A stretch of DNA of 64,000 bases from positions 922,982 to 986,981 of the forward strand of contig NZ_WRXM01000002.1 in the NCBI RefSeq assembly GCF_010119205.1, in the 5' to 3' direction. The position numbers were made by a program, and so were the translations under genes. Below are positions 47,224 to 50,891 of the stretch, piece by piece; the stretch's first letter is position 1, and each line of letters begins with the position of its first letter. The notes beneath the pieces were generated by a model. That model was not told the DNA's origin, ran no database searches, and saw nothing but the letters and a program-made list of their open reading frames with translations. The stretch comes from Haloarcula limicola. GTDB lineage: Archaea > Halobacteriota > Halobacteria > Halobacteriales > Haloarculaceae.

Positions 47224-47610
47224 ATGACCGAGTATCTCGTCGCCACGTCGTCGGTTCACGTCACCGCGGCGGCGGCCGATTACTTGACGGACTATCTCGA
47301 TCCGGACGAGGACAGCCTCGTCGTCGTCGCGGTTCGGGAACCCGGGCGTCCCGTGCGAGACGCCGACGACGCCATCAACGTCGCGCGAGCCCGGTTCGGG
47401 ACGCCAGCGCCGACCGTGGAGACGCGCGAGGGCGACACCGTTCCGGAACTCCTCGCGGCCATCGAGGAACACGACCCCGACGAGATAGTCGTCGGGACAA
47501 ACGGCGGGCGGGCGGCTGACCAGGGCGTCGGATCGACGGTGACCGAACTGCTTCGGCGGCTCCGTCGTCCGGTCGTCGTCGTCCCGCTCCCGAGCTTCAG
47601 CCGTCCCTGA
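47224..47610 (+). CDS. Second universal stress-type protein
   Basis: 128 aa, MTEYLVATSSVHVTAAAADY. A USP-like alpha/beta fold with IVVGTNGGRAADQGVGSTVTELL near the C-terminus, close to the USP nucleotide signature. It lacks the usual first-strand VPLDGS. Its 3' end overlaps the convergent ParA-like gene by 14 nt. Confidence 0.82.
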   Translation: MTEYLVATSSVHVTAAAADYLTDYLDPDEDSLVVVAVREPGRPVRDADDAINVARARFGTPAPTVETREGDTVPELLAAIEEHDPDEIVVGTNGGRAADQGVGSTVTELLRRLRRPVVVVPLPSFSRP

Positions 47611-48337
47611 ACCGGTCGAACAGCCCCGGTTCGGGGAACGAGAGGTCGAGATCCGCGTCGAGGAGGCCCTCCGTCGCCGCGGCGACGGCCGGCGCGAGCG
47701 CCGATTCGGGGTCGAGCGCGGTCGGAATCCGGGCGTCCGGTGCGGCCGCCGGAATCGAGTAGTCGGCGTCCGAGACGGTGTGCGCACCGTCCGCGTCGGT
47801 CCGCGTGGCGACGACGGCGTCCGCCGGCGCGTCGACGTCGCGGAGTCGGCCGCGCTGTCGCGGCAGCAGGTCGGTCCCTCGCCGGGTCGCCGGGACGACG
47901 AGCGCCCGACACCGAGCGGCCGCGAGCGCCGCGACCGACTGATTGGCCGCGACCGGCGGCACGTCCAGCACGACGCGGTCGAACCGTTCGGCGGCGTCGG
48001 CGATCGCTGTCTCGAACAGGCGCGCGCTCTCGGGTGCCTTCGCCCGGGCGAGGCGCTCGAACGGTGCGTGGGCCGGACAGAGCGCGACGCGGCCCGGCGC
48101 GTCGATGTCCCAGTCGTACAGCGCCTCGGAGAGCGCGGCGTCGCCGGTCGCGACGGCGGTCACGTCGGCGTCGATGCGTCCCTCGACGAACGTCGCCAGC
48201 CCCTGCGTGGCGAAGGCGGCGTCGAATACAGCTACGGACCGGTCCGCCCGTGCGAGCGTCGCCGCCACCTCTACTGCGGTTCTGGTCGTTCCGGCACCGC
48301 CGGTCACCCCCACGAGCGCGAGCGTCGAACTCCCCAT
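47597..48337 (-). CDS. ParA/MinD-like protein with altered P-loop
   Basis: 246 aa. The fold of ParA/MinD ATPases is suggested by the N-terminal ALVGVTGGAGTTRTAVEVAA, FDAAFATQGLA and DRVVLDVPPVAAN. In true family members the loop reads KGGxGKT with two Lys; here both are missing (TGGAGTTRT), so ATP hydrolysis is doubtful. Divergent from the FPD-repeat lipoprotein gene, with a 121-nt shared promoter region that has a T-rich box on its own side. Confidence 0.8.
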   Translation of the reverse strand: MGSSTLALVGVTGGAGTTRTAVEVAATLARADRSVAVFDAAFATQGLATFVEGRIDADVTAVATGDAALSEALYDWDIDAPGRVALCPAHAPFERLARAKAPESARLFETAIADAAERFDRVVLDVPPVAANQSVAALAAARCRALVVPATRRGTDLLPRQRGRLRDVDAPADAVVATRTDADGAHTVSDADYSIPAAAPDARIPTALDPESALAPAVAAATEGLLDADLDLSFPEPGLFDRFRDG

Positions 48338-48458: not shown

Positions 48459-50459
48459 ATGAAACGAAGTGGGGGCGAAAGCAAGTGGAGTCGGCGGGGA
48501 TTTCTCCGAGCGGCGGGAGTGACCGCCGTCGTCGGGTCGCTGGCGGGGTGTAGCGGGCTCACGGAGCAGGAGTTCGTCGCCGACGCCGTCGTGTTACCGG
48601 CCGATGCGCAATCTCGACTCGGGATGAGCGCCGTCGTCGAACAGCCACAGCGGAGCGAGATCGAGCGCACCGTCGGCGGACAGGACGTCAAAGCGACGGT
48701 CGAGAGTTTCGTCTCGGTGTACGCACGGGACGGGAGCGACGGAACGCAGGGGGCGGACGGCCCGGACGGTGACGAGTCGTTCCTCTCCGGATTCGTCGGT
48801 AGCGGCGAGGGAAGCGACGTCTTCGCCGGGCCGTCGACGGCGTTCGACGTAGCGGGCGGGACAGCCCCGTTCCTCGACGGCGACGACCCGGTCGACCCGC
48901 GCGGAATCGTCCTGTTCGCGTCTGGAGCGGCCCTGCGCGCCGGGCGCTCGATCGACCCCGGGAACGTCCTCGCGGTGGCGCACCGCTCGGCGTTCGAGGG
49001 AGCGGAGTCGTTCGTCGCCGGTGAAGCCGGCGCGCTGTTTCCGGACGGACACTTCTTCCCCGATACGAGATTCTTCCCCGAGAAACCGGCGTGGCTCCCC
49101 GACGAACCGCGGTGGGAATCGCCCGGCGACGCCGCCGTCGCGTTCTTCGCCGGCGGCGACGCCGACGTGACGCTCCCCGACGGACAGCGGTTCGAGGCCG
49201 GGGCGGAACTCGACGCCGAGTTCGTCGCCGCGCCGGCCGACGCGTTCTTCGACCCCGGCGTCTCGGTCACCGATCCCGACCGCATGGCGAAGGCGTTCGG
49301 CTTCGACCCGTCTGAACTGGTCGTCACCGACCCCGACCGGATGGCCCGCGACGCCGGCCTCGTCGTGTTTTCCGACGGGGAGCGCGGCGTCCCGTTCGCG
49401 TACTTCCCCGGATCGGAGTGGTTCCCGGACTCCACGTTCTTCCCAGACGGGTACTTCGCGGGCGACCGGCAGGTGCTGGCCGCGCCGCTCGGCGAGCTGT
49501 TCCCGGACGATTTCTTCTTCCCGGACGGCTACTTCTTCCCCGACGACTACGTCACGCCGAAGAGTCTCGCGCTGTTCTTCCCGTCGAAACCGCTCGACGA
49601 GGTCCCGGAGCCCTTCGCCGCCGTCGAATCCGGTGCCGAGATCGCGCCGTCCGAGACGCTCCTATTCGCGCCCGCGGCGTTCCCAGACGGCTACTTCTTC
49701 CCCGATTCGACCTTCTTCCCGGACGGCTATTTCTTCCCGGATACGATATTCTTCCCGGACTCGTCGTTCTTCCCGGACACCATCTTCGCCGAGGCGAGCG
49801 GCGACGTCGCGGCGGTGGCGAGTTCGAAACCGTCGGAAGCGTTCCCCGATACGATATTCTTCCCGGACAGTTCGTTCGCTCCGACGGCGGTGCTTCACTT
49901 CCCCGGCCGGTTCGGGTTCTCGACTGACACCTTCGCCGAGGGCGGCGGGCCGGTGGCCTACCGCGCGCAGTCGGGATCGATGGCCGACGTGAACGGGGGC
50001 GAACTCGGCGGTGCCCTCAGCGTCGGCGTGCTCAGCACGCCCGCCGCCAGCGTCGCCGGGCAGTCGCTCAACCCACTCGCCCGGCTGGGGCTCTCGGACC
50101 TGCTCACGAACCCGGGAGCCGAGTCGTTCCTCGGCTCCGCCGGCGTCGGGAGCGGCGACGTGAACTGGGAACGCGGCCCGACGCGACTGGCGACGGGCGA
50201 GACGACGGTCCTCGGCGAAGCGACCGCGCTGGAGACGTACGCGGGCGTCCTCGGCGGCGCGGAGCCGAGCGTCGTCTACCTCCACCTCGCTCGCGTCGAG
50301 AACGGCAAGAGCGTCGTCGTCGCGGCGGGCGTCCACGGCGGTCCCGTGGCCGATACCGGGCGGCCGTTCGTCGGCGCGGACGGCTACCTCAGCCGGTCCG
50401 AACTGGACGAGCACCGCGCGGACGTGGCCGCCGTCGACGAGGCGCTGGTCGTCCGCTGA
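48459..50459 (+). CDS. Tat lipoprotein with FPDxxF hexapeptide repeats
   Basis: 666 aa. Twin-arginine lipoprotein signal SRRGFLRAAGVTAVVGSLAGC, so it is probably anchored outside the membrane at Cys 31. Residues about 34-95 and 540-640 (GETTVLGEATALETYAGVLG and VVYLHLARVENGKSVVVAAG) resemble the two ends of haloarchaeal DUF6517-type lipoproteins. Between them lie five blocks of a six-residue repeat FPDxxF: 194-219, 316-333, 348-364, 408-443 (six exact tandem units) and 462-473. Variable pairs are GY, ST, TI, SS, GH, DF. Two further repeats read VTDPDRMA (about 270 and 289). Function unknown; a beta-solenoid-like or surface-adhesive insert is inference. Confidence 0.88.
   Translation: MKRSGGESKWSRRGFLRAAGVTAVVGSLAGCSGLTEQEFVADAVVLPADAQSRLGMSAVVEQPQRSEIERTVGGQDVKATVESFVSVYARDGSDGTQGADGPDGDESFLSGFVGSGEGSDVFAGPSTAFDVAGGTAPFLDGDDPVDPRGIVLFASGAALRAGRSIDPGNVLAVAHRSAFEGAESFVAGEAGALFPDGHFFPDTRFFPEKPAWLPDEPRWESPGDAAVAFFAGGDADVTLPDGQRFEAGAELDAEFVAAPADAFFDPGVSVTDPDRMAKAFGFDPSELVVTDPDRMARDAGLVVFSDGERGVPFAYFPGSEWFPDSTFFPDGYFAGDRQVLAAPLGELFPDDFFFPDGYFFPDDYVTPKSLALFFPSKPLDEVPEPFAAVESGAEIAPSETLLFAPAAFPDGYFFPDSTFFPDGYFFPDTIFFPDSSFFPDTIFAEASGDVAAVASSKPSEAFPDTIFFPDSSFAPTAVLHFPGRFGFSTDTFAEGGGPVAYRAQSGSMADVNGGELGGALSVGVLSTPAASVAGQSLNPLARLGLSDLLTNPGAESFLGSAGVGSGDVNWERGPTRLATGETTVLGEATALETYAGVLGGAEPSVVYLHLARVENGKSVVVAAGVHGGPVADTGRPFVGADGYLSRSELDEHRADVAAVDEALVVR
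49680..49787 (+). repeat. Six tandem 18-bp units encoding FPDxxF
   Basis: 108 nt = six in-phase 18-bp units, each TTCCC(A/C/G)GA(C/T)nnnnnnTTC. Unit pairs at the variable dipeptide are GY, ST, GY, TI, SS, TI. Codons differ between units, so the array is not a fresh expansion. Other blocks of the same unit lie at 49038-49115, 49404-49457, 49500-49550 and 49842-49877. Confidence 0.9.
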
Positions 50460-50468
50460 CGGGGCCGA

Positions 50469-50891
50469 TCAGGCCCCGTCTTCGATGGCCGCCGCGATGT
50501 CGTCGAGTTCGTCCTCGGAGAGGTCCGGTCGACTCCCGAACAGCGAGTGGATCGGACGGCCGCCGTCCCCGGCGAAGCGCGGGACGATGTGGCCGTGGAC
50601 GTGCGGTACCTCCTGACCGGCCTCCTCGCCGTTGTTGAACGCGACCGTGCTGCCGTCGGCGTCGACGGCCGCCTCGACGGCCGGCGTGAGTTCGTGCAGC
50701 GCCGCGAACACGTCGCTCCCGATGTCGCTCGGCAACTCACCGAGCGTCTCGTGGTGGGATTTCGGGATGACGAGCGTGTGGCCCCGAGCCAGCGGGTTGG
50801 CGTCGAGGAAGGCCAGTACGGTGTCGTCCTCGTAGACGGTGCGGCTGGGGATGTCGCCGGCGACTATCTGACAGAAGATGCAGTCGGACAT
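50469..50891 (-). CDS. HIT-family (histidine triad) protein
   Basis: 140 aa. Nucleotide hydrolase/transferase of the HINT branch: catalytic HVHGHIVPR at about residue 96, upstream ARGHTLVIPKSHHETLGELP, and an N-terminal CIFC pair. Usual substrates are AMP-linked amines or dinucleoside polyphosphates. Just downstream (same strand order) of the uracil-DNA glycosylase gene, with a 49-nt gap. Confidence 0.94.
   Translation of the reverse strand: MSDCIFCQIVAGDIPSRTVYEDDTVLAFLDANPLARGHTLVIPKSHHETLGELPSDIGSDVFAALHELTPAVEAAVDADGSTVAFNNGEEAGQEVPHVHGHIVPRFAGDGGRPIHSLFGSRPDLSEDELDDIAAAIEDGA

Follow-up and report, generated by a model that had tools for sequence, protein, structure and literature searches.

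A hexapeptide frame kept in the inserted cassette of a haloarchaeal DUF6517 lipoprotein

Introduction

Surface proteins often contain short tandem repeats. One case is found in a 64,000-nucleotide stretch of Haloarcula limicola DNA (the window), where an open reading frame at 48459-50459 (+, ATG start, 666 aa) encodes a putative lipoprotein with repeated FPDxxF hexads. The initial annotation had noted at least 15 such units in five blocks, six of them exact and in tandem at 49680-49787, and had proposed an extracellular beta-solenoid or cation-binding surface. Here, the anatomy of the gene, the constraint on the units, their occurrence elsewhere, and the competing explanations are considered in turn.

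Architecture of the lipoprotein

A Tat signal (SRRGFL) and a lipobox (LAGC, Cys31) are located at 48489-48551 (+). The protein scores 17.7 bits with the NCBIfam model TIGR01409, above the cut-off of 16.7, and R12, R13, A29, G30, and C31 are invariant columns among 11 relatives. With a twin-arginine signal followed by a lipobox cysteine, the product is predicted to be a Tat-exported lipoprotein.

On the window protein itself, Pfam reports the C-terminal half of DUF6517 only (PF20127, aa 521-626, E 1.6e-11, 44.9 bits against a gathering score of 23.9). This is a family of haloarchaeal lipoproteins to which Pfam assigns no function. Two short orthologs, L008 and L009, have open frames of 292 and 269 aa. 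Both ends of the window protein align with the ends of these short forms, and L008 gives a single unbroken DUF6517 match (profile 3-163) that covers both halves; in the window protein, a cassette of about 410 aa thus splits the DUF6517 domain in two. The N-terminal half comprises aa 32-91 (48552-48731, +), the cassette approximately aa 92-505 (48732-49973, +), which is missing as one block in L008 and L009, and the C-terminal half aa 506-666 (49974-50456, +). In the alignment, the cassette is also carried by the full-length H. amylovorans ortholog L003 (82% identity), by L005-L007, and by L032-L035. We regard this anatomy as close to certain. It agrees with the earlier suggestion that both ends are of the DUF6517 type. 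The accompanying suggestion that the repeats are an expansion inside a known scaffold holds for their position, within an insertion in DUF6517, but not for their nature, because the insertion, as judged from the alignments, is a five-block cassette common to other genera and not a simple repeat expansion.

All hexads of the protein fall in the cassette, which contains 14% Phe, 11% Pro, and 11% Asp. The earlier count was borne out, with 16 hexads in five blocks, namely 14 exact FPDxxF units, one FPGSEW, and one FPDDYV. Block A (49038-49073, +) has two units (FPDGHF FPDTRF), block B (49404-49457, +) three (FPGSEW FPDSTF FPDGYF), block C (49500-49553, +) three (FPDDFF FPDGYF FPDDYV), block D (49680-49787, +) six exact tandem FPDxxF units, and block E (49842-49877, +) two (FPDTIF FPDSSF). 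Position 3 is Asp in 15 of the 16 tandem units, and the Gly of the first unit of block B is kept in every relative aligned. In 5000 shuffles of the protein, FPDxxF occurred 0.04 times on average and at most twice, against the 14 observed; at the DNA level, a pattern spanning two neighbouring units matched 10 times in the window, against 0 expected from shuffles.

The view that the repeat matches no known family also stood. The cassette (aa 92-505) has no Pfam match up to E 10, and the hexad region has no match in NCBIfam and none in the PDB by phmmer, while a profile search of the PDB gave a chance match only (E 0.06). Among the open-access papers searched, none was found on the hexads or on DUF6517. 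An internal domain repeat of about 60 aa was considered and rejected, as hhalign pairs the segments of the cassette essentially through the hexads alone. The cassette also contains the octapeptide VTDPDRMA twice, 19 residues apart (49266-49289 and 49323-49346, both +). The first site is partly conserved in L005-L007; the second is absent from them, and L003 has VTDPDRMS there, both copies being present in that ortholog.

Constraint and age of the hexads

The initial annotation would have been refuted by plain disorder without conserved unit number or spacing. That outcome is half excluded: the array may be disordered, but number and spacing are both conserved in the H. amylovorans ortholog, whose 16 units match those of the window in number and place. 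Between the two proteins, the first Phe, the Pro, and the Asp or Gly at position 3 are each identical in 16 of 16 units and the aromatic at position 6 in 15, while positions 4 and 5 are identical in only 9 and 6. In total, 63 of 64 frame residues are identical, compared to 15 of 32 (47%) at the two middle positions and 252 of 318 (79%) in the rest of the cassette (Fisher, middle versus rest p=2.5e-4, frame versus rest p=4e-5). The same order is seen against the more distant L005 (frame 53/60, middle 6/28, rest 158/297). Between the window and H. amylovorans, pN/pS is 0.01 for the frame, 0.35 for the rest of the cassette, and 0.25 for the core. The middle positions reach 0.85, a value near 1 that is compatible with relaxed constraint rather than with demonstrated positive selection. 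This variability is absent from a Natronosalvus pair, which is identical at 20 of 20 middle positions.

Within block D, the divergence between units is 0.707, compared to 0.735 expected from random synonymous choice (95% range 0.685-0.781), and the array of L033 gives 0.770 against 0.752; the arrays of L003 and L032 likewise follow the synonymous expectation. These arrays are thus old and have been preserved at the protein level. Units of L078 and L067 are more alike in DNA than expected, which implies that recent duplication also occurs in the DUF6517 family. Selection for DNA divergence among units is unsupported, the observed level being what synonymous choice predicts. Gene conversion of whole units as the source of change at the middle positions is disfavoured, because unit-specific codons are kept in the ortholog (CCA at aa 408; GAT at 414, 426, and 462) while the middle residues differ at 408, 426, and 462. 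In a Natronosalvus-type pair (L106:4085-6142 and L113), a ten-unit array has 3 synonymous differences in about 44 sites, compared to 118 of 484 in the rest of the gene, possibly through exchange between copies. The repeats of the window are neither recent slippage nor noise.

Occurrence in other lineages

A search of archaeal proteomes for F-P-D-x-x-F repeats had been advised with the first description; a pattern search of genomes found arrays in DUF6517 lipoproteins of other haloarchaea. The pattern, three tandem units of P-[D/G/E]-x-x followed by an aromatic or one of some other residues, matched 37 of 392 genomes of the order. Among the matches read as proteins, in-frame arrays with a hydrophobic position 1 occurred in DUF6517 lipoproteins of G000, G015, G017, G047, G073, G122, G128, G143, G183, G244, G302, and G314, with one clear exception to this scaffold (G163). 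Unit types vary with lineage: IPGSTW (G128, G314), FPGDSF (G047), mixed IPGDSF/FPGDxx (G122), FPGDTW (G244), FPGETY (G143), and YPGSMW (G017, G073, G183, G358). In the longest relatives, the blocks occupy the same alignment places and the unit type is often different.

Position 3 is Asp in 56 of 71 Haloarcula-type units and Gly in 90 of 94 units of other lineages. Position 6 is Phe in the former and mostly Trp in the latter, and position 4 is mostly Ser, Asp, Gly, or Thr. The constancy of Pro at position 2 is partly built into the search, which required it, and is also evident by position along the tandem runs. From these sequences, the general unit is hydrophobic-Pro-[Asp/Gly]-polar-x-aromatic. 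The shared places with different units point to an undescribed, selected surface module.

A similar pattern was run against 344 genomes of the phylum, most of them (about 280) from outside the order, and the searches also covered IMG/VR, phage, and plasmid records. The five matches in genomes outside the order proved to be antisense, in another frame, or simple repeats. No relative that would indicate a viral or phage origin was found in IMG/VR or phage records, the single IMG/VR pattern match (L086) being the antisense of a Lys-rich linker.

Several unrelated repeats were seen along the way. Other loops of the DUF6517 family (L039, L040, L044, L054, L041) carry (D/L)TGNNPF heptads, DRHGPM(R/L), or MWSDAPT, and L087 has an array of YPAGWSDW octads. 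In a CitG-family open reading frame (L082:280-1749, G251), VPDAEF occurs five times downstream of the main CitG match as a plain 18-bp tandem duplication.

A second scaffold and split genes

The array protein of G163 (L066; L098:6625-7893, -) is an exported DUF1102 protein whose scaffold is unrelated to DUF6517; it is distantly like the fimbrial adapter model TafE, far below the cut-off of that model. Its array context 'VVVTPATAFPDSTFFPDSIFFPDSAFFPDSTF' resembles the window context 'LLFAPAAFPDGYFFPDSTF', and it carries FPDSTFFPDSIFFPDSAFFPDSTFFPGADW and 'FVTDPDN', as does the DUF6517 cassette of the window. Among the matches listed, no DUF1102-type match in another genome reaches into the array region of the G163 protein.

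In five genomes (L099, L100, L101, L102, and L103; G310, G276, G342, G234, and G244, respectively), the DUF6517-cassette gene is split into two open reading frames exactly at the N boundary of the cassette. Stop and start overlap or abut (TGATG or cagTRAgATG), and the two junction types shift the reading frame by different steps, which makes one shared frameshift unlikely. The Tat motif and lipobox are in the first frame only; the second has no signal peptide. Putative Tat co-export of the assembled halves of a two-part domain is a possible explanation.

Variation at the locus within the genus

Intact copies in the genus all lie at one place, in the order RNaseH-like, USP-like, ParA-like, lipoprotein, HIT. 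In the window, the left edge of this variable site is a ParA/MinD-like ATPase (47597-48337, -; Pfam AAA_31), a conserved neighbour at the loci of the genus, and the right edge is a HIT-family protein (50469-50891, -; Pfam HIT 3e-26). The HIT gene is present in 32 of 32 genomes, sampled at one genome per species, and the site beside it was surveyed in all of them, with G017 left unassigned. Five genomes (G000, G002, G015, G018, G022) have the full-length gene and two (G009, G028) the cassette-less gene. In G025 (L123), an N-terminal remnant (aa 28-101, with TAG) lies between ParA and HIT and is a direct trace of gene loss. The remaining 23 of the 32 have an empty site, in which ParA adjoins HIT with no trace of the lipoprotein gene, and the gene is therefore dispensable. 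In the core tree, the short forms cluster with each other (95) and next with the full-length L005 (90), so that loss of the cassette as a whole is the simplest reading. In G018 (L007), the units have decayed and the gene has been retained.

Structural reading and alternatives

Pro-Asp and Pro-Gly are classical beta-turn pairs, and on this basis each hexad would make one beta-turn. A run of such turns may pack into a compact, turn-rich strand array, either a beta-spiral or a meander of short strands, in which aromatic and proline side chains stack and the turn surface presents the variable middle residues. Outside the membrane, the module would be held by its lipid anchor and the DUF6517 head, and its repeated aromatic face could bind with avidity to another surface protein, to a surface, or to a further copy of itself. 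Our best reading, proposed tentatively for both fold and function, is an exposed aromatic module, rich in turns, that serves contact or partner binding at the surface. It is favoured by the constrained frame and free middle positions between the window and H. amylovorans, by the age of arrays kept as protein, by the shared placement of blocks whose unit is specific to the lineage, by the turn signature of Asp or Gly at position 3 beside Pro with a mostly small or polar position 4, and by the same array on a different exported scaffold (DUF1102). Against a contact role, nothing among partners, phenotypes, or operon context suggests adhesion, and the gene is dispensable in view of the many empty sites. 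The decay of units in G018 without gene loss and the invariant middle positions of the Natronosalvus pair also count against the reading, as do two uninformative AlphaFold models built from two-sequence alignments (mean pLDDT 27 for the whole protein, and 34 for 101 aa that include blocks D and E).

The exchange of Asp and Gly between lineages favours one beta-turn per unit and goes against a general Asp ladder that binds cations. The near-constant Asp in the window speaks for the earlier proposal of such a ladder on a beta-solenoid, but with Gly at position 3 nearly throughout the other lineages, and with IPGSTW and YPGSMW units lacking any acidic residue, the ladder is weakened and the combined reading is highly improbable; an Asp ladder is possible as a lineage-specific extra in the Haloarcula protein. 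The AlphaFold models speak neither for nor against a beta-solenoid as such. A passive elastic spacer, in which the hexads have no binding role and serve only to lengthen or stiffen the protein, as beta-spirals do in elastin or gluten, would account for a Pro-Gly or Pro-Asp every six residues and for units whose identity changes fully between lineages while their positions stay. We consider it unlikely, as five separate short blocks in a non-repeat cassette do not resemble one stalk, the strict hydrophobic or aromatic positions 1 and 6 exceed what a spacer needs, and block sizes are nearly constant between orthologs.

The conserved frame, variable middle, and several spaced blocks are also typical of repeated linear motifs, and a disordered array whose FPDxxF-type units all serve as peptide ligands of a single partner, through multivalency, could produce them. 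The partner would have to co-evolve with a motif that changes between lineages in nearly all blocks, and a fixed spacing of six and a fixed unit number would be needless, so this explanation seems quite unlikely. A neutral minisatellite, with 18-bp slippage copies tolerated in exposed loops, has precedents in the near-identical copies of L078 and L067, in the CitG-like frame of L082, and in unrelated repeats such as DTGNNPF in other loops of the family. For the window it is largely refuted, since the window and three relatives are at synonymous saturation with frame residues hardly changing, and two species at 82% identity have equal unit numbers; overall, we judge it improbable.

A wider version of the surface-module reading is that of a transferable turn-hexad (hydrophobic-Pro-[Asp/Gly]-x-x-aromatic) borne on DUF6517 and occasionally on other exported scaffolds, with a fixed frame and a unit replaced wholesale per lineage. 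The diversifying middle positions in Haloarcula would then provide an evolvable recognition surface, and the hexads an undescribed class of archaeal surface repeat. We offer this as a rather doubtful extension.

Relation to known repeats and significance

Elastomeric repeats such as elastin VPGVG and gluten PGQGQQ also have Pro-Gly in a short regular unit. The hexads share with them Pro and Gly (or Asp) and an expected single beta-turn per unit, but differ in their six-residue length, hydrophobic or aromatic ends, short separate blocks, and archaeal lipoprotein setting; no homology is claimed. The left-handed beta-helix (Pfam Hexapep) has a six-residue period with a Leu/Ile/Val-Gly pattern and long uninterrupted coils. 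The period is shared, whereas the hexads of the window have no Pfam match, combine bulky aromatics with Pro as the second residue, and lack both that pattern and long coils. PARCEL (PMC2996958) is described as a repeat-coding sequence spread among surface proteins; it resembles the hexads in being short repeat-coding DNA in surface proteins of several lineages, and differs in its organisms and repeat pattern, and in that the hexads conserve the protein frame and not the DNA.

The DUF6517 scaffold family and tandem short repeats of surface proteins as a kind were already known; the hexad class had no counterpart in Pfam, NCBIfam, the PDB, or the open-access papers searched. Across orthologs, the blocks stay in place and the frame of the unit is retained, while the motif itself differs from lineage to lineage. 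Within one genus, the locus exists with the cassette, without it, in decayed form, and empty, which makes Haloarcula a clean natural experiment on the role of a surface repeat in archaea.
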